64,000 nt of DNA from NCBI RefSeq assembly GCF_026151205.1, contig NC_087073.1, forward strand, positions 6,841,001 through 6,905,000, given 5' to 3'. This stretch comes from Bolinopsis microptera (taxonomy: Eukaryota > Ctenophora > Tentaculata > Lobata > Bolinopsidae). The notes under the pieces were generated by a model. It saw only the letters and a list, made by a program, of their open reading frames with translations. It was not told where the DNA came from and made no database searches. Made by a program: the position numbers and the translations under genes. Of this stretch, positions 7,508 to 61,951 are shown one piece after another. Positions within the stretch are counted from its first letter, which is position 1. The number at the start of each line of letters is the position of its first letter.

Positions 7508-10500
7508 TCAGCGAGGAGGTGGGGGTCTCATGTGACCAGTGATCTTGGTTGCCATAGCGATCATCTGTTGGATGTTACCTTGAATAGGTTTAGCTCCTGG
7601 TATCATTGGAGGGGTAGAGGCGCTAGATCGGGGTAAAGGTGGTCTGGCTGGTTGATAAGGTTGCGGTGGGCCACCTAGTCGAGGCGGGGGCGGGCCACCC
7701 ATTCGAGGTGGGGGAGGGCCACCCATTCGAGGTGGGGGAGGGCCACCCATTCGAGGTGGGGGAGGGCCACCCATTCGAGGTGGGGGAGGGCCACCCATTC
7801 GAGGTGGAGGAGGGCCGCCTAGTCGAGGCGGGGGAGGGCCACTCATTCGAGGAGGAGGGCCGCCTAGTCGAGACGGCGGGCCACCCATTCGAGGTGGGGC
7901 TGGAGGTGAACCTCGGGGTCGGGATGGAGAAGGGCCCCCAAACCGAGATGGAGGTGGACCTCTAGGTCGAGGTTGTCTGATAGGAAGTCTGTGTTCTGAA
8001 ACTGCCATTAGAGGCTCTCTCCGGACAGGAGGTCTGTTTGACAAGTTCTCAGCAGCTATCCTCTGAGAGGAGATGAGACTAGCAATGGATGCCTGATGTG
8101 AGGTCCCTGTATTAGAACAAGGTGTTTGTTGAGGTCTGTGGTGAGCGGCCCCCCCATGTTGGGCGGGTGGTCTGAGGTGAGGTATCCCCGGGGGCAAGCT
8201 TGGTCGAGCAGCAGCATGTTGAACTGCATTTTCCTGAGCCAAGGCGGCCGATACGTTCTGAAATTATAATTTATATCATTTTAAAGGTATCCAATCACCT
8301 TGAGAGGCTACTATATTACAGCAATTTTTTGTATCATAAATTTAAAAATCATTAAAATATCTACAACTAATAAATCTCTCCTTAACCTTGACATCGATAT
8401 AAACTTTGTTTGGGTCGTTGAAGTTGGCGTTGTACTTGGCGTTCTGACCAGGGGTGGTGGTCTTGAAGAGGATGGACATGACAGTTGATGTGGGAGCTTC
8501 CTCTGGACACGTCTGATTGTACTTGTCCGCTTCTATCGCTAAAATCTGCGAAGTTGTTACAAAATAATTAGACTTGCAGTCAAAATTATGCTGCCGAAAT
8601 GATACAGCCGGTGGCTCTCCGTTCCCTTATATAGCCCTTCAGCATAATCTTTATCAATTATACTTTATCTATCGTGATATATGCCAGAACGAAGTGAACA
8701 TCTGATAGTCCTCAGGTAAATTGTGATTGCGAGTGGTCTGCATTATTCAACAAAAAACAACAAACCGCACCTTTTTTAAAGCCCATAGAGCAGCTCTTCC
8801 TTTAGATTCCTTCTTGCTTGGTGCCACGGAAGGAGGAATGAACTGACCCCAGGCTGTTTTAGCAGTTATCTGGTGGACTCCAGTGGAGGGGTGGTCTATG
8901 TACTCCGGACAAGGTCTCCCTATGTGCTGGTGTATCTCCCCTAGTCCAGATACTGCATGCTTACCTGTCACGTGGTGGGCTCAGTTATGTGCGTTGTAAA
9001 GATACTTCTTATGCTTTACTTTGAACCACTTAAAGATTGGAGATACTTTATACGTAGTTCATGACTGATCTTGTTAGAGAGAAACAGAAAGAGAAAGGGG
9101 TATCGAGACTTACCATTCACAATCTTGAGCACCCAGTTACAGCCCACAACATTCGCTCCTCTTTCTGCTGCTGGGTTTTTCTTTATAACCTCTTGTCCCG
9201 TCATCAATCCTGGGAAACGTAAAATTACTACGACGTATTTTAGAGTAGTCTTACTTAAATGAGAAATAAGATATGTCAAACAAATTCGATGAAAGTTACG
9301 ATATTTAACTTTATTTATAATAAATATAATATGCTAATATAATACCAGTCAAACAGTGTGTCAGTGTCAAAGGAACACATTTCTGCCGCCAATATAAAAT
9401 ACTTACTGTCCTCGGCATTGCAATTGGGAAGCTTCTTTACACCTCATCGACTTGGAGCACGAACAGCTGGCCACAACTGATACCTTTTGATAACTGATAT
9501 CATTCGTCATAATTTTCGACAAAATTTGGCACAAAAAACCAAATTTTGTCGAAAATTCGGAATGTAAAAATTGTGTTTCGATGGAAGATCATGATAATAT
9601 GATACCAACTTATTAGGGGTGAGTTATCAGAAGGTATGAGTTACGGTCAGTGTTTAACTTACAATGAAGGGAGTCGGGATTCATGTTGCTTACATGAGGA
9701 GTCTATGTTATACCTACTAAAATTAACCAAATAACCAATTTAGAATTAGCAGCTGAGATTGGACACTTTTTATTGCAATCTTAGCTGCTAATCGTAATTC
9801 CTTCTTTAAATTTTATATGTTTTTAGCCCTTATGGAAGATGTACTTTCCCCATTTGCATCCTAACCGTAGATCGATAATCGATATGTATTGGATAATCTA
9901 AAATTCTTTAAGTATAGTCGAACTGTGAATATGTCTGTAATAAGGGTTTGAGCAACCCTTTAGCTTTGCAGTTTGCATACAATCGAAATTGGTAAACTCT
10001 ATACAGGCGTTTCAATTATCATTGAATTTGTCAGTGCTCGGAAAGGGCCTAATCGAAGTGACCGGTTTTAAAACCTTTTTTTTACTGACTAATCTAAAAC
10101 GCCAATCTTTAAAAACTCAGGAAAAAATATTGTACTGTAGTAATGGGGGTGGGTGGGCGAGGCTGAAGCTGAGCCGCCAACATCAGGTACCTGAACAAGT
10201 TAAAGAAGTTAAGGTTGATTGACCTCAGCATTGTTGGAGCCAAATAAACTTGCTGCACCAACAAATTGAGATCAATCAACATCAACCTTTTGGAAAATGT
10301 AAAACATTCAAAGGGAGATAATATAATTACAGAAACCTTTGCGGTCGGTTTTCACAGCCAGTTGAAGAGGGTTCACATCACCGGTACCCTCTTTTCCCAG
10401 ACCCTGTCCCGAACTCCAGCCCATCTTCATCATCATCGCAATCCCCGGACTCTCTGTTAACGGAGCAAGGTTCATGAACATGTCCTGGAATTTGAAGTAT

Positions 10501-13500
10501 TTCTAACTTACCCGGAATTTGGTCGAACTGTTAAGTTTCGATTGTACCAAAATTTAGATTTTAAACGAATTCTTCAGAGATTTGCAATAGCTATTTTTTC
10601 GATGAAAATGAAGTATAAGATTTTTAGTTATAAACCTTTCTAGCCCAGGTGAGAGGGTGATGAAGTATAAGTTATAAACCTTTCTAGCCCAAGTGAGAGG
10701 GTGATGAAGTATAAGTTATAAACCTTTCTAGCCCAGGTGAGAGGGTGATGAAGTTTAAGTTATTAAGTTATAAACCTTTCTAGCCCAGGTGAGAGGGTGA
10801 TGAAGTTTAAGTTATTAAGTTACAAACCTTTCTATCCCAGGTGAGAGGGTGATGAAGTTTAAGTTATTAAGTTATAAACCTTTCTAGCCCAGGTGAGAGG
10901 GTGATGAAGTATAAGTTATTAACCTTTCTAGCCCAGGTGAGAGGGTGATGAAGTATAAGTTATAAACCTTTCTAGCCCAGGTGAGAGGGTGATGAAGTTT
11001 AAGTTATTAAGTTATAAACCTTTCTATCCCAGGTGAGAGGGTGATGAAGTTTAAGTTATTAAGTTATAAACCTTTCTAGCCCAGGTGAGAGGGTGATGAA
11101 GTATAAGTTATTAAGTTATAAACCTTTCTATCCCAGGTGAGAGGGTGATGAAGTTTAAGTTATTAACCTTTCTAGCCCAGGTGAGAGGGTGATGAAGTTT
11201 AAGTTATTAAGTTATAAACCTTTCTATCCCAGGTGAGAGGGTGATGAAGTTTAAGTTATTAAGTTATAAACCTTTCTATCCCAGGTGAGAGGGTGATGAA
11301 GTTTAAGTTATTAAGTTATAAACCTTTCTATCCCAGGTGAGAGGGTGATGAAGTATAAGTTATAAACCTTTCTAGCCCAGGTGAGAGGGTGATGAAGTTT
11401 AAGTTATTAAGTTATAAACCTTTCTATCCCAGGTGAGAGGGTGATGAAGTTTAAGTTATTAAGTTATAAACCTTTCTATCCCAGGTGAGAGGGTGATGAA
11501 GTTTAAGTTATTAAGTTATAAACCTTTCTAGCCCAGGTGAGAGGGTGATGAAGTTTAAGTTATTAAGTTATAAACCTTTCTAGCCCAGGTGAGAGGGTGA
11601 TGAAGTTTAAGTTATTAAGTTATAAACCTTTCTAGCCCAGGTGAGAGGGTGATGGCTGTCAAGCAGCTCTTTTGGTAGAGGTGTGGTCAGTGGGGCGCCA
11701 GTGTAACGTCCTCCAGCATTTCGGACAGTAGAAGACTGCCACTGATTCATCTGATCGTGAGAAAATGAAAGGGTAAATAATTTTCTGAAGTTCTTTTAGA
11801 AAATCAGGACCAAATCTAAATGAGTTTTTCTCCTATCTGTCCAATATATGGCCCATTTTTTATAAGATCGGCTTGTGCATGGTGCAAAAGACCCTGCCCA
11901 GTTTAAATTATATCATTGTGTTTGGAGCGATAAAGACATACGGTATTTAATAGTTTGACAGCATGTTTGAAAATTATTTTTGAGTAGCATTATGGCTCAT
12001 CAGATTCCTTAATGCAGGAAACATTTTGACTTACTAATATCTGAGCTTCGTGCAATATCTTTTTCGCAGCTAAGTCATGTGGGTCTTTAAGCAGGAGTTT
12101 GTTCGCTTCAATTCTCATTTGCATTATTTCTGACAGCGATGGCTGAGGAGATGATCTATTGTTACAAATACAAACTTATCATGAAATAAATATAAATTTG
12201 GTATGATCCCATGAAAGTGTGCTCCAGCTCCATATAATAGCTTCTCGGTCATTTAATAAGAAAATGTTAACAATATCTAAAGAAGAAATTCTTTATATCT
12301 CCCTTACCGGAGGTTTCAGTTCACCCTCCTCCTTTTCCTCCTCCGCCTTCCCTTTCTCCTTAGGACCCTCAATTGCCAACACAGAGGCTGCTGCTTTCTC
12401 GGACTCCTCAGTCTTGTGGTCGGACCCACAAGAGACGGGGAACAACTGTTGAGCTAGAACGGGGGGTAACCTCACCCTATCCAATGTAGGAGCCGCTAGA
12501 GAGGGGGTTGCTGATGGGTACAGGGTAACTAAAGCTTTGTCCATCTCAGGTCCCTCTATGGCGAGGTAAGAGCTGGAGGAAGGGAGTCCGCGAGGAGGAC
12601 GTTCCACGCTGGAGGAGCTGGATCTGTGTCGGGATCTGCTCCGGGACCGTCTGCGTTTCCTCCGGTCTACAGGCCTGGACACTGGCAAGTCAGGACCATC
12701 CTGTATTGACTTACATTTCCTCACGTAGTCATCTTTATCTGAAATAAGTACGGTTAACCGACGGGATGATTTATTTGAATCAATTGGAAGTTTGTTCAGC
12801 TATCATTTAAAGTTGTTGGTATTCTAACAATTTAGGATTTTATCAAGGAACGTTAAAGGAGAAAATAATAGTTACCTCTTGAATCCGATCTCGATCTCGA
12901 TTTGGACTTGCTTTCCCACAATTTTTTGCGGTGTCTACGTGATCTTCCTCGACTCCGAGAACGACTTCGTCTTCTTCGTCGATTATGGGATCGGTGTCCA
13001 CTATCCCGATTCCTACTTCGGGATCTCCTTTTACTTTTGTTCCGGGACCGACTGTTGGAGCGAGAACTTTTACGTGGCCTTGAGGACCTCTTTGGGCTCT
13101 TAGACTTGCTGCGTTTTGACTTTTTCGGACTTTTGCTTTTAGATTTCGATTTGATGCGTTTCAATGGCTTGGGACTTTTGGACTTGGACTTGATTTTTTT
13201 TGCCAGTTTTGGGGACTTTGACCGAGATTTACTGTTGGTTTTCTTTTCTCTGTATTGACGATCCTTTTTGCTGCTCGGTGATTTAGATCTAGACTTGTTC
13301 TTTTTCTTTTTCTTTTTCTTCAACTTGTCTTTTAACTTTTCGATAGAATTTTCTCGTTCTTCAACCTAACAATTGAATGGGTTACAAATATACAGGGTCG
13401 TCTTTTAACATTTTTCTAAACTTGCCCCGTTGAGTTTTGCTATAATTTTTATCGGTATCACTATTTAGTGATAAATATCATGATTTTGAACACTGGAACG

Positions 13501-14139
13501 TGATTTTACCACTTAATACCCTCCTCAATAATGAAGCTCACATCCCCTACATAATATTACAACCCTTGTGTTCGGACTGCTTTTTAACAATTATAAACAG
13601 AAGTCACAATATCATGAATCACACTCAAACCCCGTCTAAAATCTATAGATTTGAAAACAAATCCACACGAACAGCTAACCTCCTTTGCATCCTCCTTCAG
13701 TTTCCTCCTCTTGTAAATAATTTTCGCGAGTTCGATAGCAGGAAGAGCCTCATTGAGGGGAGCCCCCTTTGAGCCCTCTTGTGTGGCTACATGAAGTCTG
13801 TAGCTCCTGTGATTGAATTGTGAAATAAAAATGGGAATTTTGATCAGCACGTGGTGGTGGAGTTAACCAAGAATCATTCTAAAATATTCGAAACACGCAG
13901 TTGTAAACTGTACAGTATGCCTGTACAGATTACCTATGTAGCAAATCTATAAACCCATTTATTCAGCTTACAGAACCAATTCCGCCTGTTGCAACAGTGG
14001 AGGCAGTAACGAATGACTCTGTAAAAACTTACTTTAAATCTTCCTCGGTTATGAGATTTGTTTCGATGTAGTCGCCGTTATCCTCGAATATCACCTCACT
14101 TTCGGACGATCCTCCCGCATCTGAGTCATTGCTGGGCAT
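7508..14139 (-). CDS. SON: SON-like splicing cofactor: RS domain, G-patch, dsRNA-binding domain, proline-rich tail
   Basis: Eleven exons (14139-14033, 13806-13680, 13365-12876, 12738-12308, 12142-12035, 11750-11628, 10484-10337, 9209-9114, 8964-8771, 8545-8387, 8257-7508) join in frame to 910 aa. An acidic N-terminus is followed by a Lys/Arg-Ser RS domain (about 95-240), a linker, a G-patch (about 475-510; MGWSSGQGLGKEGTGD) and a C-terminal dsRBD-like segment starting NGKHAVSGLGEI (about 543-612). RS plus G-patch plus dsRBD in this order is the SON arrangement, a nuclear-speckle cofactor that supports splicing of weak introns. Unlike vertebrate SON the protein runs on for about 300 residues, ending in GGPPPPRM repeats. 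The donor of exon 6 lies inside a 21-copy minisatellite. An AG lies 1 nt before the ATG. Family call is strong; orthology rests on domain order. Confidence 0.85.
7673..7900 (-). repeat. 24-bp coding repeat for GGPPPPRM octapeptides
   Basis: Within the last exon of the SON-like gene a 24-bp unit (GGGCCACCCATTCGAGGTGG plus 4 nt on the + strand) is repeated about eight times, some copies shortened by 3-6 nt or with RL for RM. All length changes keep the frame. This yields a poly-proline/Gly-Arg tail resembling low-complexity splicing-factor tails. The opposite-strand open frame is a by-product. Confidence 0.9.
9467..9650. mobile_element. Small foldback/MITE-like element in a SON-like intron
   Basis: Imperfect terminal inverted repeats of about 29 bp (CTGGCCACAACTGATACC at 9467-9484 against the reverse complement of 9633-9650) continue into TTGATAACT. 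Inside is a perfect 18-bp-arm hairpin around 9511-9555 (ATTTTCGACAAAATTTGG, loop of about 8 nt). It has no coding capacity. The target site duplication was not resolved. Confidence 0.6.
9746..9791. repeat. Short hairpin in a SON-like intron
   Basis: TTAGCAGCTGAGATTG (9746-9761) and CAATCTTAGCTGCTAA (9776-9791) are inverted copies with one mismatch and a 14-nt loop. It lies about 100 bp from the foldback element and may be part of the same insertion history. Confidence 0.7.
10632..11653. repeat. 44/52-bp minisatellite carrying 21 copies of a 5' splice site
   Basis: The unit (+ strand: AAACCTTTCTAGCCCAGGTG, then AGAGGGTGATGAAGTTTAAG, then TTATTAAGTTAT) is 52 bp, with a 44-bp short form; 21 copies can be counted. 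Read on the gene strand, each carries the end of SON-like exon 6 and its donor (CTGGGCTAGAAAG|GTTTATA). Only the copy nearest the exon (donor after 11628) keeps the reading frame. The other 20 lie in the intron as potential decoy donors. Some copies have a G-to-T change (TCTATCCCAG). Confidence 0.93.
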
Positions 14140-15917: not shown

Positions 15918-18900
15918 CTAAACCTCAACATGTGCACTGAGCCGCTCGATTACTTTCCTATACTCCAGTTCCACGTCTCGGTACGACTTCTCAAGGAACT
16001 CGTGCTGGTTGTCCACTGATTTAGATTGCAGGACTGCCTCATACTCCTGAACAGAAATATGTAAAACATGTAAAGTTTTAACATAATATCAGGTTTTGAG
16101 ATTACCTTTACTTACACGTAATTAAGTTATTCAAGAAACAAGATAATGAACACGACAAATCAGCTATCTCGCTAACCTGGGGCTGCAGGAATTTTTCCAA
16201 CTTCTGAAGAGACTTCTTTTCTTTTTGGAATGGAATATTAAGTCTCCTCTTCACTTCTAATCTGTATTTTTTGTATTCCTCAGCTTTAGATACATCTGTA
16301 GCTCGTAGTCTCAATAACTCGTAGATTTTCCTAACTTGAACCGCTGTTATCTTGTACTTTACACCTGCTTCTGCCACCATTTCCTGAAAATAAGGGAAAA
16401 AATAAAGAAAGGAAAAAAATTTTCAGAAAGGAATTGCCACCTCTTAAGATAAAACACCAAATGAATTTGATGGAAAGTAAATGGTATTACGTTGAACAGA
16501 GGACAGCTCACCTCTGAAAAGCCATCTTTAAGCTTGTCTGGCTGAAAAGAGGGCAGTGAACTGCACTTTAGAGCATCCACAAAATTCCTAAGCCGAGTAA
16601 AATTCTCAGAGGGATCCTCAACAGTGATATCACAGACGAGCGGGTCCGCACAAGAGTGTTCGTACATGGCAGTAAGAAGCTTGGCACCATGCCCACACTT
16701 CTGATACGGCGGCAGAACTAGAACTTGACTTATCCGGGGTCTCTTTTTGTTTGGGTAGCAGTAGTAGTTGTAGCAGGAGAGGAACCCTATACTTTTGTAC
16801 CTGAAATAGTAATTAGTAGGGGACCGGGAGGGTATGAGATGAGGGGGGGGGGGGGCCGGGGGGGGGGGGGGTAAGTAATAAGTATGTGGATACTAGGATT
16901 AAATAATATGAAATAGTAGGGGGAGGGTCTAAAGTAGAAGGGTAACTGTGTTGAAACTAGGATTACATAACATGAAATAGTAGGGGGAGGGTCTAAGGTA
17001 GAAGGGTAACTGTGTTGAAACTAGGATTACATAATATGAAATAGTAGAGGGAGGGTCTAAGGTAGAAGGGTAACTGTGTTGAAACTAGGATTACATAATA
17101 TGAAATAGTAGAGGGAGGGTCTAAAGTAGAAGGGTAACTGTGTTGAAACTAGGATTACATAACATGAAATAGTAGAGGGAGGGTCTAAAGTAGAAGGGTA
17201 ACTGTGTTGAAACTAGGATTACATAATATGAAATATTAGGGGGAGGGTCTAAAGTAGAAGGGTAACTGTGTTGAAACTAGGATTACATAATATGAAATAT
17301 TAGGGGGAGGGTCTAAAGTAGAAGGGTAACTGTGTTGAAACTAGGATTACATAATATGAAATAGTAGAGGGAGGGTCTAAAGTAGAAGGGTAACTGTGTT
17401 GAAACTAGGATTACATAATATGAAATAGTAGGGGGAGGGTCTAAGGTAGAAGGGTAACTGTGTTGAAACTAGGATTACATAATATGAAATAGTAGGGGGA
17501 GGGTCTAAAGTAGAAGGGTAACTGTGTTGAAACTAGGATTAAATAATATGAAATAGTAGGGGGAGGGTCTAAAGTAGAAGGGTAACTGTGTTGAAACTAG
17601 GATTAAATAATATGAAATAGTAGGGGAGGGTCTAAAGTAGAAGAGACATTCAGACCAATTCAAAAGTTTCAAAATAAAACAAATGATGATTGATATCAAT
17701 GTTAATATTTTAAAATTAAATTAATTATTTCAGTTTATCCTACATGAATTGAGATTTCTTAATTAGATCACTCCGCAGTAGGGCAGCACAATGAACATTG
17801 AACATGAAAGATTCTTTTTACTGAATATTTCAGGATATTCAACATGAAATGTTGGGATTTTGACTCATTCTCACTGCATAATTTGAATATGTAATATGAG
17901 TCATTCCGACTGTCGCGTCGTGACACTGAATGTCTTTTGTAAGTATTTTTTCTTTATATCGCAAATACGTCATAAGGTTGTGGAATTTCTATATATTTCT
18001 TTTTATTCCTTCTTTTTTATTCATTTTTATTTCCAAGTCATTGTTGAAGTAATAAAAAGTAATTCTATTCTATTTTCAGCTGTTGTACTTGACGACAAAT
18101 CTGTCACAACTGCAACCGATCAAAATTTGGTGTGCACGATCAGTGGATTATCACAGAACTCCCCTGTTACTTGGATTGGACCTGACAACAACGAGATATC
18201 AGACTCTGAGACCAACAACTATGTTGTTGATCAAGGCACATACCGACAGTCGGGCAATTCAATATTATAACTTTATAAATGTACTTTAATTTAATTTTGT
18301 GACGTCCAGTTTTTATCTGACCACGACAGTAACCATGGTAACCATATTTCTTGTTTCCTACCCTAATTATTATTAACTTAACAACACTGTACCACACTAC
18401 CACAGTTATGGCTTCAAGTTCTAAACCGAAAGGAAAACAAAAAGAAACCCCAGGTGACTTTATAATTCTATATTAGGCAACGCTTAAGATTTTAGTTAAC
18501 ATCAAAGTCATACATCCAAAAGTTTTCAGTTGTTTCCTGTCACCTACCCTAATTATTATTAACTTAACATGTTTGTAGGAGGACAGAAGTGTCGTGCGCC
18601 TCGCTGCAAAACATGCCCCCTTTCATTTACGGAGTCGAAGATCAAGGTCAACGGCATGAATCTGAAGCTGGACCAAACGTTAACATGTAAGGACGATAAT
18701 GTTATTTATGTTGCCCAGTGCCAGCTATGTCACAAAAGAAAGAAGGGAGAAAACCCAAATTGCGGCAACTACGCTTATTTCGGAAAGACAGAAACACCAT
18801 TCCACATCCGTGTTAATGGCCACCGTAGTCACTTTAATGACAAAAGTTATAATGATTCTACATTATCTCATCACTGGTATAAAAAGCACAACAAAACTGT

Positions 18901-21781
18901 TACAGAAATTGAAATGTTCAAATTTGGGATCGTGGAGAAAACAACACCGAAGTCATTAAGCAGTCGAGAAAGTTTCTTTTGTAAACAATTTAAATCAGAG
19001 AGCTGTTTGTTAAATAGAATCAAACCCCCAAGTGGCTAAAATATAAAAAGTGGCTAAGAATCTGTTTTGGTCGGAAAAAGTGGCAATACATGTTTCGGCC
19101 ATATGTTTGGTTTAAATTTTGCGTTTCGGCTGAGTTTTTAAGGACTCACACGTTTGTAGCCTTGGGTCCGCTTTTTGAGTACGTTTAACTGACCAAGTTT
19201 TGAGTATCTAGATTTATCCCGAGGTTATATTTTAGTTTTTACGGCACTAACTTAATTTCACAAAATTATTGAGACAACCTTTTTCTATTCTATTCGTGAA
19301 CATTTTAAGAAAAAACAGTTCTGAATGTTGTATAAAACACACTTCTGATACAACCAAATTGTATATAGAGACACACTTCTCTCCTTTTCTGTTCCTGATA
19401 TCTATATCGGGACAATGGACACACTTCTCGTTCAGTTTTAGTTAGTCTAGACTTCTGTTATAGTTAGTGTTTATCGTCACTTCTTAAACAAGAATTTTTA
19501 GCGTTATCAATTTTCAGTAATATGGGATTAGTAATATGGGATTAGTAATATGGGATTAGACCGATTAGTGTATTATTGTACCCAAGAAAGGGTGCAACAT
19601 TAAATTACTTTGAAAATTTTACAGAAAAAACAACAAAAAAAACAAAAAAACAAAAAAACAAAAATATAAGATAGACTTGAGCCATTAGCTCACTTGATTT
19701 TTAACATTCCTATTAAATCTTGTTTTTGGTTAAATAATTATGGTGCATTATTTGACACTGTTAATTTTACTATTAGTATTAACTACATATTTTTGAAAAA
19801 AAGCCTATTTTTTATTACAAGTTTAAAAGATTAAATTACCTTGTTTCACCGCACGAAGTTACCCTCTCGAACAAAGTATAAAGGTTCCAGTTGTGGTCCT
19901 CATCATCAATATAACTAGCGGCGTCAATGTACCATATAATGAAGGTCTGCAGTCTGCTGTGATAATCCTGGAACTTTGGATTTGCGAATGTGGCGTGGAA
20001 TATCTCGAACGTTTTTTCGTCCTGCAAAATAGACTCGGGTTATTTTTGCCTTATTTTACCTTCAAATATGAAGCTAAAAGATTACAAGTGACAAAGGTAA
20101 TAACACAACTTAAACGTTTAGCTGTAACTTGATCTGAACTATTTAAAATATTATATATTTGAATATTCAAAATATTCAAAATATTCGAAATATTTAAAAT
20201 CTGAACCTGTTTATAGGATGTTATGAGGTCACCAGGAGGCCTGAAACTCTTATCTTTGTTCATGTCCATGATAAACTCATTGTAGTTAGTGGTGAATCCA
20301 GCGGGGGTCTGTTCGCTTATCAAGTGAAGCACGTTGTCGGGCTCCACCGTGCTATTCACTGGTACCTGATACAGACACATTAAGTAGGATATTAAACTGG
20401 TACCTGATACAGACACATTAAGCTATTAAGTAGGATATTAAACAAGTCTGCAGCTGTGATTATAGAATAATCGCTTTATTCTCTTCCTTTTTGATAGGGT
20501 GAAAGTAATGGAAAATAGTTGAGTTAAACTTGTGATAAGTGGGCTAACAAATAGTTGATGTTAGCATTCCTTTAAATCTCAGTTCTATGATTTCTAACAA
20601 CCCAAACAAGCTATAAACATAACGGCCACTATCACCACATAAATACAAAAGAACAATTACCGTTTCCGAGTGTTGAACCTTGACATACTGTTTGAGGGAC
20701 CCAACAGTGTAGTAGATGTTGATCTTCAGACCCTTGTAACCGAATATCACTTCCTGGTCTCCAAATACCTACATCATGGTGTTGATATTATTAATAAATA
20801 GATAATAAATTAAAACATTTAGTACGCTAATGATAAGATAGTACTAATACTATATTAGATTGAAATTAGCTACTTTCGTTAATTGAGTCATTATTTAATA
20901 CAAATTACACAGTTAAGTGATAAAACTAAATGGCAGTGAAAAGTGTGACTACACTACACAGCTCAGTATTACGTTGTAAAACATGATATTAAAACTCCGG
21001 TTTGAAATAAAGGTGAACCCACAAGTTTTATGGTCAAGAACCTAGTGTAATATAAACTCTGGTTTGGAAGTGAATCTGTGAAAGAGAAACTACACATACT
21101 ATATCACCTGATGTGTGAACTCTAGCTTAAAAGTGAAAGAGAAACTGCACGTGCTATAATTACCTGATGGATGAACTCTGGTTTAAGTGAAAGAGACACT
21201 ACACGTGCTATACATTACCTGATGGATGAACTCTGGTTTGAAGTGAAAGAGAAACTGCACGTGCTATAATTACCTGATGTGTGAACTCTGGTTTGAAGTG
21301 AAAGAGACACTACACGTGCTATACATTACCTGATGGATGAACTCTGGTTTGAAGTGAAAGAGAAACTGCACGTGCTATAATTACCTGATGGATGAACTCT
21401 GGTTTGAAGTGAAAGAGACACTACACGTGCTATACATTACCTGATGTGTGAACTCTGGTTTGAAGTGAAAGAGAAACTGCACGTGCTATAATTACCTGAT
21501 GTGTGAACTCTGGTTTGAAGTGAAAGAGACTACACGTACGTCGTACCGTGCTATAATTACCTGATGTGTGAACTCTGGTTTGAAGTGAAAGAGACACTAC
21601 ACGTGCTATACATTACCTGATGTGTGAACTCTGGTTTGAAAGTGGCTGCCGTATCGTCAGGAGCCTGTACGTCAGCCTCGCACTCACAGAACTTGAAGAA
21701 TATAACGTCCTCAGCTTCACACACGAACTTCTCTCTGTTACCGCGCTCTATCGGAGCACATAACCCATCTAGTACATTCAT
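15918..21781 (-). CDS. HAT1: Histone acetyltransferase type B catalytic subunit
   Basis: Seven exons (21781-21617, 20768-20661, 20365-20207, 20021-19840, 16800-16512, 16383-16177, 16046-15918) join in frame to 412 aa, close to the usual size of about 420. HAT1 acetylates new histone H4 at K5/K12 with RBBP partners. Visible signatures are FGYKGLKINIYY, WYIDAASYIDDEDHNW, the acetyl-CoA motif QKCGHGA (238-244), the segment CDITVEDPS containing the likely catalytic Glu266, and a basic C-terminal helix region ending IERLSAHVEV. Exon 4 uses the donor after GGTGAAACAAG, not the earlier GAGAGG|GT, because only that restores phase into YKSIGFLSCYNYY. Intron 4 is about 3 kb and contains other genes on the opposite strand. 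The exon-1 donor and the exon-3 and exon-5 acceptors are each next to tandem duplications. AG lies 2 nt before the ATG. Confidence 0.96.
16843..16871. repeat. G13-CC-G14 tract
   Basis: Two long G runs separated by CC, next to the acceptor of HAT1 exon 5 (a C-rich tract on the transcribed strand). It could form G-quadruplexes. Run lengths may be assembly-uncertain. Confidence 0.85.
16905..17645. repeat. 64-bp minisatellite, about 12 copies
   Basis: The unit GAAATAGTAGGGGGAGGGTC followed by TAAAGTAGAAGGGTAACTGT and GTTGAAACTAGGATTACATAATAT repeats every 64 bp with few substitutions. The unit begins with the same TGAAATAGTA that forms the HAT1 exon-5 acceptor at 16801-16812 (CTATTTCAG on the gene strand) and continues with a GGGGA..GGGAGGGT motif present there. 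The array therefore seems to have grown from the 3' splice-site region. Inside the array the AG is changed to AT. Confidence 0.9.
17896..18270 (+). pseudogene. Truncated Ig-like domain gene fragment nested in HAT1 intron
   Basis: Two exons (17896-17938 and 18080-18270) with a good GTAAGT donor and a TTTTCAG acceptor join in frame to 77 aa. The second exon holds the first half of an Ig-fold: DDKSVTTATDQNLVCTISG with the B-strand Cys, then SPVTWIGPDNNEI with the core Trp. The frame stops before the F-strand Tyr-x-Cys, so the domain is incomplete. It is probably a remnant of a larger Ig gene, or the 5' part of a gene whose other exons I cannot find. Confidence 0.45.
18357..18569. repeat. Perfect 27-bp direct repeats around the GIY-YIG gene's first exon
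   Basis: CCTACCCTAATTATTATTAA plus CTTAACA occurs at 18357-18383 and again at 18543-18569, flanking exon 1 and the intron of the GIY-YIG gene. The second copy directly precedes the exon-2 acceptor. A short local duplication around a splice junction would produce this. Confidence 0.85.
18408..19039 (+). CDS. Stand-alone GIY-YIG endonuclease-like protein (PLE-type)
   Basis: Exons 18408-18453 and 18579-19039 join in frame to 168 aa, starting MASSSKPKGKQKETPGG; an AG acceptor lies 2 nt before the ATG. It has a Cys-rich linker (CRAPRCKTCPLS, then a Cys before DDNVIYVAQCQLC) followed by a GIY-YIG core (VIYVAQC ... YAYFGKTETPFHIRVNGH) and a later SHHWYKKHN. This Cys/His linker plus GIY-YIG order is the endonuclease end of Penelope-like elements, and the PLE at 59.4-62.0 kb has the same arrangement. 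There is no reverse transcriptase here, the frame is intact and an intron is present. It may be a captured or domesticated PLE endonuclease, or an intact 3' end of an old element (inference). Confidence 0.7.
19040..19839. other. HAT1 intron remainder after the GIY-YIG gene
   Basis: Contains three tandem GTAATATGGGATTA copies (about 19515-19558) and an A-rich C(A)n tract at 19621-19666 that looks like a decayed poly(A)/simple repeat, possibly the 3' end of an inserted element on the + strand. No further exons were recognised. Confidence 0.5.
20359..20442. repeat. Tandem duplication of the HAT1 exon-3 acceptor
   Basis: CTGGTACCTGATACAGACAC followed by ATTAAG and TAGGATATTAAA is present twice (20359-20396 and 20397-20442, the second with an 8-nt CTATTAAG insertion). 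On the gene strand each copy carries TGTGTCTGTATCAG|GTACCAG, the acceptor plus the first exon bases. The copy at 20365 is used in the coding model and the other lies in the intron. Confidence 0.88.
21070..21616. repeat. 55/56-bp minisatellite carrying the HAT1 exon-1 5' splice site
   Basis: The unit TTACCTGATGTGTGAACTCT, then GGTTTGAAGTGAAAGAGACA, then CTACACGTGCTATACA recurs about every 55-57 bp. Ten CCTGATG sites are present, including the real exon end at 21617. On the gene strand each copy reads ACCAGAGTTCACACATCAG|GTAAT, that is about 24 nt of exon 1 plus its donor. Nine near-identical donors therefore follow the real one within 550 bp. Alternating GTG/GGA and GACAC/GAAAC variants suggest dimer-wise amplification. 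Confidence 0.93.
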
Positions 21782-22794
21782 TCCTGCAGTAGTTCACATT
21801 AAATATTATCTACTGCACGTTAATTAATCACGCGTTTTGTGTTTTCAGTAGAATTACTTTTTAAGTCTATACAAAATTAAAGTTACGAAAAATGTGAGGT
21901 ATCTCACATCATCAAAAATGGTCAGTAATCAGTATTTATCTTATGAACACAATCCTAAAACTGGTCGAATTGTTGTTTTAATTGTTGTGTATATACAGTG
22001 ATTAAAATGGAGACAAATGAAGCTCAGCAAGTTGGGACAATTTCCAATGAAAATAGAAAAATAATTTAAAACTTAGTATCAGTAACTAGCAATATATCAT
22101 ATTATATCCATTCCAAACAATGTTAGGAGCTCTAGATCACCTAGAACTTGCATAAAACAATTGAGTTAAAGACTGTGTTAAAGCAATCTAAACATATTTT
22201 AATAATACGAGAGCTTAATCCGGGAGAAATGCCTACTTTACAGTTTTATACTTTAGCAAATTCAATCGTCATGTACGGAGGATTTCTATAATCGCTTTAG
22301 CTTTTTAGATACAATTTTTTTGTTAAAACAACGTATTTTTATGTCACAAACACACATCATAATTTACACTGAACAAAATTGGAGTATTTTCATCTCATGG
22401 CACAATATCAGAATATATGAATTTAAAATATCCAACAATTTAAAATATCCAACGATGCAAGTGCTAGTACTTTTAAATTTATAACTTCATCATTTAATTA
22501 TAAATAGTTATCAATGAAAAGTACTGACCAATAAGCGTAAATTCTAAATTTCTAAATACCGAGTTGCCTAGTAGAAAAGATGTTTCTAATCTCAATCGTT
22601 GTGATAGTGCCAGCACAAACTCACATTAAAAATCATGCCAAAATCCTCAAATCGCATTAAAAATTGCAATTCGGAAATGTCGATCATAAATTCATAATTC
22701 ATAACACAAAAATTACCCATCAAAAGAATAAAGCAATATACCATACCCATAACCTAAACATTCAGAACTGAAATCATTGGGAATCATTAAACAA
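21782..22794. other. Intergenic between HAT1 and VPS54
   Basis: AT-rich, with no supported ORF. It separates HAT1's 5' end from VPS54's 3' end on the same strand and so should hold the HAT1 promoter and the VPS54 3'UTR. Confidence 0.5.
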
Positions 22795-58985: not shown

Positions 58986-59498
58986 ATTCAGATTGCTTAT
59001 ATATATGCTATTCGAACCATAATATAGAATTTTTAAAGATGGAACTGGAACTGGTATGGGGGCTGGGGCAATGATTTTTGTAACCATTTTATTGGTATCA
59101 TTTTGTTAAACGTATGAAGATTTTTCTTGGTGAAAAGTGTTTAAATATAATTTCATGCTTAAACACGAGTAGATTCGCCTTTTTGATTTATTTAGTTTTT
59201 CAATCTTTATTTATACTCATAACTGTAAGTTTTATTACTAAGATTATAATTAGATTTAGAATTAAAATCAAATTTACACTTCAAAACAATATGAATAAAA
59301 ATTATGCATGAAGAATCTTTAATCTGCTGTGCAAAACATTCAAATCAGTCTAAAGCTGTTAAAAAGTGCACTTTTCAAGACTTTTAATCAAAACATATTA
59401 TATATATATATAAGAGGAAAAAGGTCAACCGTACTTCGTCTCACAGACATCAGAGGACATTGATCAAAGGCACCCTTCCGAAGGTTGAAGACTTATCA

Positions 59499-60536
59499 AT
59501 GGAAAACATGTCCAGAACAGTTGTTAACCTTACAGACAAGGAGCTCACCAAAGAGCAACTATATGTCTTCTTCTTGTCTCATAAGTTTGCACCTACACCT
59601 CCCCTACCAGATCTGAGTCGCTTCGAGAACGATTTGTGTACATGGTTTTCCAAAATGAGAGCCAAAGTTGTTTTTGATAGCTTCAAATGTGGACCCAACA
59701 AAGCAGATAAAAGAGTTACTGACATGGAGCGCTGCCTCATCAAGGCCGAATCATCACGTACTTTTGAATCATGTAAAAACCCTGCACTCGAGGCATTCAT
59801 TAAATGCTGCAGAGCAGAAGTTGATCTCCACCGGCCAACTCAGAAGTATGTTTCACCAGACAACATCGCTGCACCTATCAGATCAGCTCTCAAAGAAGTG
59901 AAAGGATGGAAGGATGTGGTTATTAGACCTTTTGACAAAGGGGTAGGATTCTTTCTTCTTGGAGAGGAAGAATATATTCAACGAATAGGTGTACATTTGA
60001 ATGATAGATCTGTATATAGTATTGTAAATAATGTAGATGATTTAGTTTCAGAATTAATTGATAAAATTTCATGTTGGACAGTCAAGTATAAAGAAGAATT
60101 AGGTATGTCTAAGAAGGTCAGGGAGTGGGTTATTCCGTGTACGGAGCTCAACCAGCCTGGTAATATGTACCTGAATCCCAAGGCCCACAAGCCACCTTTG
60201 TACCCTGGGAGGATGATTACTACTGGATGTGGTTCGTACATTGAGAACCTATCTGCCCTGACTGCATACGAATTGAAGAAGGCTATTTTAGATTATAGAA
60301 TTATTGACACCCCACATTTTTTGAGGAAGATTGATAGCTTGAATGAGTCGACCATATTGTTGGGTAAGGAGGTGATACATGTTGCCATAGATATATCCAA
60401 CATGTTCACCAATATCCCCAGGGATATGGGGATCCAACAATGCACCAAGCACCTGAATGAAAGAAGTAGTTATGATCAATTGTTCAGTACAGAATGCATT
60501 ATTAGTGCTCTAGAATCACTCTTGATTACAACATAG
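59499..60536 (+). pseudogene. PLE polyprotein, N-terminal part up to the frame break
   Basis: An open frame from ATG 59499 (the frame extends upstream to about 59460 without ATG) covers the N-terminal region and the first RT motifs. It goes out of frame at about 60521, where the homologous reading continues in another phase. It then meets TAG at 60534-60536. Confidence 0.85.
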
Positions 60537-61951
60537 CTTCGTTCAACGGTATAACATACCGTCAGGAGCGTGGAGCGGCGATGGGTCCTAAGAACTCATG
60601 TGAGTATGCAGATTGTGCAATGGATAAGATCGATATTTTAGTTAATGAAAGAGATTTAGAACATGGCCCGCCACACAGACCAGCATTCTGGGGTAGGTTG
60701 CGTGACGATATATACATGGCCTGGCCTGGTACTGTTGAGGAGCTTCTACAATTTATGGAATGGCTCAATAGTATCCATCCGGACCTTGTGTTTACTTACG
60801 ACTACTCTAAGGATGGTGTTGAGTTTTTAGACACCTATGTCTATGCTGTTGGCGATGTTATTCATACCAAACTTTACTCTAAGCCCAGTGACACCCACTG
60901 CTATCTCATCCCCACCTCATGTCATAGGAGCCATGTTCTCAAAAACATACCCTATGGTGTGGCGAGGCGAGTGAGGCAGAACAATAGTGAAGACACTAAT
61001 TTCTTAGAGCAAAGGGAGGTATATACTGGTTACCTTGTAGCCCGTGGTTACCATTCTAGTATTGTAGACGATGCTTTTAACAAATTTAGTGATATAACCA
61101 ATAGGAAAAACTTGTATGCCCCTAAAAATAAGGATGAGACGACTACTTGTCTAATACCCATGGTGATGGATCAGAATCCAGCACTTCCCAACATGGGGAG
61201 CATTATTCACAAGTATAAGCACCTTCTTAATCTCGATCCAGCCTTGAAGAAGCTAGTACGTGCTGACAGTGTATTTGTAAGTCACCGAAAGAATCAAACT
61301 ATCGGTGGCATGCTTGTACACAATAAGTATCGTGCTAGTGGAACTGTAAGCAGTGATAGAGATGGAGAAGCCACTGCTAGTCAATTTCTTGAACCAGACG
61401 CTGCAATATTGCCGGCTGTTCGGGAGGCTGACAACGCAGGGTGCCATGCCTGTGGAAAATGCTATGTTTGTAAGCAAAGTTTCCTGTCCCCTTGTTCCAA
61501 ATTTAGTAGTCACCATTCTAAACAAGTTTTCCCTATTACTAAATATATAACTTGTCAGAGTAATAACCTTATTTATTTAATGGAGTGTAGAACTTGTAAA
61601 CAGTCGTATGTAGGATATACTACTTCTAATCTCCCTAAGAGATTTTCTAATCATAAGAGCCACATTAAGAAAGGTATCAGAAGTTGTAAGTTAGTAAATC
61701 ACTTTTTAGATATTGATCATGATTTAGATTTTAGTTCAGTAGCCTTATATAACTCTTCACTTAGTACGCACCTTTCTGTTATTATAGTGGACGCTCTTGA
61801 ATTTAAACCTGAAATAAGTCAAGCAGATAGGGAAAAGGCCATGGAAGCTAGAGAGGGGTTCTACCAGACCCAATTGAAAACCCTTGAGCGTTATGGGGGT
61901 ATGAACACCCTCGATAGTAACCACATCCTTTTTAAATCCGCTGGAGCTTAG
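60524..61951 (+). pseudogene. PLE polyprotein, C-terminal part after the frame break
   Basis: The open frame (476 codons) resumes at DYNIASFNGITYRQERGAAM and runs through the catalytic DD, thumb region, Cys-rich linker and GIY-YIG domain to TAG. The offset corresponds to one missing nucleotide. Apart from this the element looks young. Confidence 0.85.

Follow-up and report, generated by a model that had tools for sequence, protein, structure and literature searches.

When the end of an exon has been repeated, together with its 5′ splice site, many times over in the intron that follows, how is the gene spliced, and how does such an array come about? This question is raised by exon 6 of a SON-like gene in the window, a stretch of 64,000 nucleotides from the Bolinopsis microptera genome (NC_087073.1, positions 6,841,001 to 6,905,000), in which the exon ends within a minisatellite that contains 21 donors. 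Either some rule gives donor 1 precedence over 20 near-identical copies, or the animal bears a cost. The preferred reading, held here with a probability of roughly 0.8, is that the array is a minisatellite of the “mirage” type described in lancelets, which would have arisen by local tandem duplication across the exon 6/intron 6 boundary and then expanded, splicing proceeding via the exon-proximal donor. Coordinates of the relevant features are collected in Table 1, and a slash marks the splice boundary throughout.

Table 1. Features of the SON-like and HAT1 genes and their junction arrays (positions within the window)
Feature	Position	Strand	Basis
SON-like gene model, 11 exons, with RS-rich regions and G-patch	7508..14139	minus	Open frame, GT-AG introns; Pfam G-patch
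Exon 6 of SON-like gene, 123 nt, phase 0-0; last 27 nt form part of repeat unit	11628..11750	minus	Open frame
44/52-bp minisatellite repeating exon 6/intron 6 junction, 21 donors in total	10608..11654	minus	TRF, score about 1600
Exon-proximal donor GT (GCTAGAAAG/GTTTATAAC), sole copy keeping the frame open	11626..11627	minus	
20 extra donor copies, all behind in-frame stop	10634..11575	minus	
Exon 7 of SON-like gene, G-patch start; acceptor AAATTCCAG/GACATG outside array, 151 nt from last donor	10337..10484	minus	
HAT1 exon ending ...FKPEFTHQ/GTAATG	21617..21783	minus	phmmer versus HAT1 structures, E=2.5e-80
About 55-bp minisatellite with 10 donor copies, repeating the end of the HAT1 exon together with its donor	21078..21640	minus	TRF
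Two-copy duplication across HAT1 3′ splice site, TATCAG/GTACCAG	20359..20442	minus	Read by eye

The exons of the host gene join across GT-AG introns of the minus strand into a single open frame that runs for 910 codons before its stop, and the predicted protein of 910 amino acids contains, as read from the translation, long RS/KS-rich stretches from exons 3–4. A G-patch (PF01585) was identified by Pfam at residues 472 to 513 (E=1.8e-12), and for a C-terminal dsRNA-binding domain no Pfam hit was obtained at E≤1. According to PMC4394511 (in part), human SON has a dsRNA-binding domain in addition to its RS domain and G-patch. The initial annotation had taken the host for a splicing cofactor of this kind; the RS-rich regions and the G-patch support that assignment, the dsRNA-binding domain went undetected, and the gene is accordingly called SON-like on the strength of the first two features. 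AlphaFold2 prediction of exon 9 alone, run without an alignment, returned a pLDDT of 55.5 and no usable model.

Donor copies were counted with the search word GGG[CA]TAGAAAGGT, the donor reading GGG[C/A]TAGAAAG/GT. Twenty-one copies, one real and 20 extra, were found with exon-end positions running from 11628 to 10636, and the exon does end, within an open frame, inside a minisatellite that copies its 5′ splice site 20 more times, as the initial annotation had proposed; the extent which it gave for the array (10632–11653) lies a few tens of bases from that reported by TRF. Successive donors are separated by 52 nt in 14 cases and by 44 nt in six, and because all spacings take one of these two values, no unit was missed between donors. 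The 21 units are contiguous and head to tail, with AAAG/GT (itself the search motif) in each. On the plus strand (10608–11654), where every unit had been said to read CAG/GTGAG, 20 of the 21 units read CCCAGGTGAGAG and one carries a base change in the CAG (CAA); the longer motif is TTTCTA[GT]CCCAG/GTGAG, an antisense acceptor and donor lying back to back in each unit and resembling a zero-length exon. No gene was noticed in passing on that strand.

The exonic part of the repeat unit, 27 nt long, is identical in exon 6 and the units, and beyond the last unit the sequence of intron 6 resembles the intronic head of the unit. A search of the genome (264.65 Mb) with 181 nt of the array, in which very common words may be skipped, returned a single locus. 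Taken together, these findings identify the unit as the local junction repeated, and an inserted element or satellite family was rejected because the search matched the SON-like locus only. Across the 21 units, 39 positions could be aligned, 27 of them in the exon and 12 in the intron; five vary, too few for a test of selection on the donors, and the base that would convert WARK to WDRK is present in eight of the 21 copies. Variants are interspersed, with nine distinct sequences among the 20 inter-donor stretches. The copy number comes from one assembly and tandem arrays are error-prone, which raises the possibility of an artefact in copy number or of haplotype collapse; the interspersed variants and the similar arrays at other loci (below) argue against this, and we consider it highly improbable. 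An artefact may shift the copy count, while the array structure itself is unlikely to be one.

When donor 1 is used, exon 6 reads ...HHPLTWARK and the intron opens with GTTTATAAC. Donors 2 to 21 are each preceded by an in-frame stop (VYNLIT, then the stop), in agreement with the earlier claim that only the copy nearest the exon continues the frame, and, as GT donors behind stops, the other 20 are formally candidate decoys. One other frame-compatible GT is found in exon 6, at 11726, and among the GT donors compared it matches the consensus at four of nine positions versus six of nine at 11627; the latter score is common to four of the gene's nine other donors. Homology to the G-patch begins at exon 7, so that the end of exon 6 is placed by the open frame rather than by homology, and the exon might in principle end elsewhere, the array then being unrelated to the junction. 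That the frame runs through 11 exons, that exon 6 offers no comparable in-frame GT donor, and that the same layout is confirmed by homology at HAT1, CDK1, and GNL2 make such an arrangement very unlikely.

Measured from donor 1, intron 6 spans 1143 nt, and from donor 21, 151 nt. Among the gene's nine other introns, eight measure 129 to 314 nt and the ninth 1127 nt. Judged by these lengths, intron 6 was probably ordinary before the array expanded. The acceptor also bears on a model of intron gain by tandem duplication, for which AG/GT, the arrangement carried by every unit, serves as the required proto-splice site (PMC4974935, in part). Since the acceptor (exon 7 at 10484) is not within the array, and a normal intron remains after the last donor, intron gain was rejected and is given only a very small probability. 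Support for the mirage-type reading at the level of sequence thus consists of a unit that is the local junction, an ordinary intron that has been lengthened, and a frame that only the first donor keeps open.

Under the mirage-type reading, the initial event would have been a tandem duplication of local origin, covering 27 exonic and about 17 intronic nt over the exon 6/intron 6 boundary, its ends probably joined at a 3-nt microhomology (CAT). Slippage or unequal exchange would have expanded the duplication to 21 copies, with a 44-to-52-nt variant of the unit. Duplication and expansion are themselves visible in the sequence; the route by which they came about, like the choice of donor, is deduced. 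To judge from the open frame, the exon-proximal donor is most likely the one joined to exon 7, probably because exon recognition favors the first donor after an acceptor, and the remaining donors would be rarely used or their products removed. The array itself would be passively tolerated, with no function of its own, and its unit number would be expected to vary among individuals. As a counterpoint, the distal donors, with their short distance to the acceptor, could win if short-intron recognition dominates here.

The same architecture is present at three other genes of this genome, HAT1, CDK1, and GNL2/NOG2, at each of which the exon is identified by homology. For HAT1, the second gene of the window, the phmmer alignment to solved structures is gap-free across the junction THQ/VFGD, and the last 24 exonic nt are repeated together with the donor. 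The duplication at the HAT1 3′ splice site, read by eye, takes in the first exonic bases GTACCAG. In CDK1, 10 donors recur with a 43-nt period and the exon (E=4.2e-12) stops at the first of them; the following exon, by reading, continues RLQADDEGVPSTAIREISMLKEL. In GNL2/NOG2, the array consists of 38-bp units, and its first donor marks the end of the exon (...DSNADMMCK; E=6.7e-10). This exon is flanked by two arrays (locus L003, 396–735 and 828–1601), the one of 41-bp units ending near the exon start and the one of 38-bp units beginning at the 5′ splice site. A TIL-domain exon (L013, E=5.5e-8; the script's frame differed from the Pfam-supported TIL frame) adjoins a further donor array, and coding-looking stretches without homology support abut arrays at L009, L010, L011, L048, L051, and L053; the architecture is probably shared at these further exons.

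Other repeats were observed alongside these. Two arrays, detected on one strand, adjoin on the opposite strand the acceptor side of a coding-looking stretch: that at L007 borders a MoCF_biosynth exon, which we take to be gephyrin-like, and that at L017 an uncharacterized stretch. Within the window, an intron of HAT1 contains a minisatellite of 12 64-bp units (16885–17643), which stops about 85 bp short of the following exon and adjoins a long C-rich tract. An array of 32 23-bp units at 1931–2674 has two frames open for more than 260 codons and is probably not coding. The open reading frames at 18563–19039 and 59388–61951 resemble pieces of Penelope-type retroelements (GIY-YIG-like). In the genome as a whole, homeodomain matches lie on contigs C1–C13 and C27, a search for tunicate GH6 was negative, and COX1 gave no match among contigs that probably do not include mtDNA.

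The initial annotation had further suggested that the extra donors could act back on the splicing of their own gene. In its full form, this explanation holds that the distal donors, through being used or through binding U1, cut the amount of productive mRNA, and that the splicing-cofactor product closes a feedback loop. Such a role would suit an array of 21 near-identical donors whose 20 extras all lie behind an in-frame stop, a donor with a consensus match of just 6/9, and a product resembling human SON, on which transcripts whose splice sites are weak are reported to depend (PMC4394511, in part). However, the architecture is shared by HAT1, CDK1, and GNL2, where no splicing-cofactor loop is needed; each of the window's two genes has AG/GTT donors; and lancelet arrays of this kind seem, from Adh3 data and globin RT-PCR, to leave regular splicing undisturbed (PMC3087553, in part). 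Feedback specific to SON was discarded on the ground that the architecture recurs in unrelated genes, and the array can be explained with no such loop. Decoy regulation at the SON-like array is not required by any of these observations, and as an explanation of the locus we regard it as improbable. Splice-junction arrays look like a recurring type of mutation rather than a gene-specific control switch.

Traces of the founding duplications were sought at the breakpoints of 12 arrays, the overlap being calculated as the exonic part plus the intronic part minus the period. A clean breakpoint was obtained in five of the 12, with overlaps of 1 nt (CDK1), 4 nt (L010 and L011, which are near-identical copies), 3 nt (L038), and 5 nt (L048), all candidate microhomologies. 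No clean breakpoint was obtained for L003 and L009, where the array passes the end of the fetched piece, or for HAT1, L051, L013, and L053. For the SON-like array, the exact intronic match found by the script extends for 10 nt; when the reading is continued by eye beyond 7 nt that differ in the last copy, the overlap comes to 3 nt (CAT). Duplications across the 5′ splice site were apparently joined at 1 to 5 bp of microhomology.

Whether minisatellites are commoner at splice junctions than elsewhere was addressed by comparing donor words with the same patterns read backwards; the figures are overlapping matches, dominated by a few long arrays, and not counts of arrays. Three donors in a row occurred in the genome 4200 times forward versus 527 backward for MAGGTRAG, 321 versus 11 for CAGGTGAGT, 1043 versus 48 for CAGGTAAT, and 404 versus 104 for CAGGTATG. 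Single donor words in 214 kb gave 51 versus 14, 6 versus 1, 18 versus 6, and 2 versus 4. The matches listed for the four donor words yielded 24 arrays, all of which were fetched and which include the near-identical pair L010 and L011. A coding-looking stretch ended at the array start with a score of at least 7 in nine of these 24 arrays among the matches listed, versus 58 of 1142 flank windows, and at score 5 in 15 of the 24 versus 78 of 1142. The same test, applied on both strands to reversed-word control arrays among the matches listed, was passed at a score of at least 7 by two of seven: L021, which has a poor donor and no Pfam match for the tested stretch, and L024/L025, a saposin-like stretch with a sub-threshold Pfam match (E=0.064). 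Because most strong donor words are genuine donors in any case, as the 51 versus 14 matches in 214 kb show, and because two of seven controls pass, the excess among the 24 arrays is weakened as evidence of a preference, and the odds of a preference are slightly lowered.

An unbiased test was made on 15 random 10-kb pieces and the window, considering arrays with a period of 20 to 120, at least three copies, and a length of at least 90 bp. In the random pieces, three of nine arrays attained a junction score of 9, versus a mean of 1.08 under random placement, a difference that was not significant (15 of 200 placements as high); at junction thresholds of 5 and 7, 85 and 45 of 200 placements were as high. 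In the window, the same test picked out two of seven arrays versus 1.06 under random placement, likewise not significant (59 of 200). Of the three candidates from the random pieces, L032 and L038 were 5′ sites without a Pfam match, and L031 was a 3′ site lying within a repeat that looks coding. It is therefore doubtful, though conceivable, that minisatellites form preferentially at splice junctions in this genome, with the 5′ splice site seeding tandem duplication. Short homologies shared by the exon tail and the GTRAGT-like sequence of the splice site could do the seeding, as could a transcription-coupled process. If the preference were real, many genes would carry arrays of 10 to 20 or more competing donors, concerted evolution would tie their exon ends to the intronic copies, and splicing would have to rank identical donors by position alone.

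Each junction array is a natural test of choice by the spliceosome, in which the sequence and strength of the donor are near constant and its position differs up to 21-fold. In the SON-like gene, nine codons at the exon end (27 nt) sit inside an array that is turning over, and exchange with the intronic copies could rewrite the protein sequence there. Were the process general, alternative exons and new introns could arise from duplicated boundaries.

Three known systems invite comparison. CeRep25B of C. elegans, a named repeat with intronic splicing motifs that is over-represented near regions of alternative splicing, is, like the SON-like array, an intronic minisatellite close to splicing decisions, but the available part of its description (PMC4039745) does not present it as a copy of a gene's own junction. 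Intron gain by tandem duplication shares with the SON-like array a duplication across a splice boundary; here, however, the intron has its acceptor from outside the duplication, and the reading involves no intron gain. The closest counterparts are the mirages of lancelets, minisatellite-like duplications of exon/intron boundaries reported in amphioxus Adh3, the globins BflGb6 and BflGb9, PGBD5, and TnC, which affect 5′ and 3′ boundaries and in which many units repeat the AG/GT signals (PMC3087553 and PMC3902484, each in part). Judged by its sequence, the SON-like array has the structural features of a mirage: head-to-tail units of minisatellite length (44/52 bp, about 20 copies), a unit spanning the exon/intron boundary (27 exonic nt, the donor, and the intron head), and AG/GT signals repeated in 21 units. 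The boundary is confirmed by homology at the sister loci and by the open frame alone at exon 6. Its 21 donors compare with six and three repeat units in two haplotypes of the BflGb6 mirage (PMC3087553 and PMC3902484, each in part), and, whereas lancelet mirages come with data on length instability and splicing, the SON-like array is known from the sequence of one assembly. In the portions of these sources consulted, mirages are reported from cephalochordates, and the open-access literature searched, likewise seen in part, yielded no splice-junction minisatellite from a ctenophore. The occurrence of such arrays in a ctenophore, far from lancelets, argues for a general mutational process.
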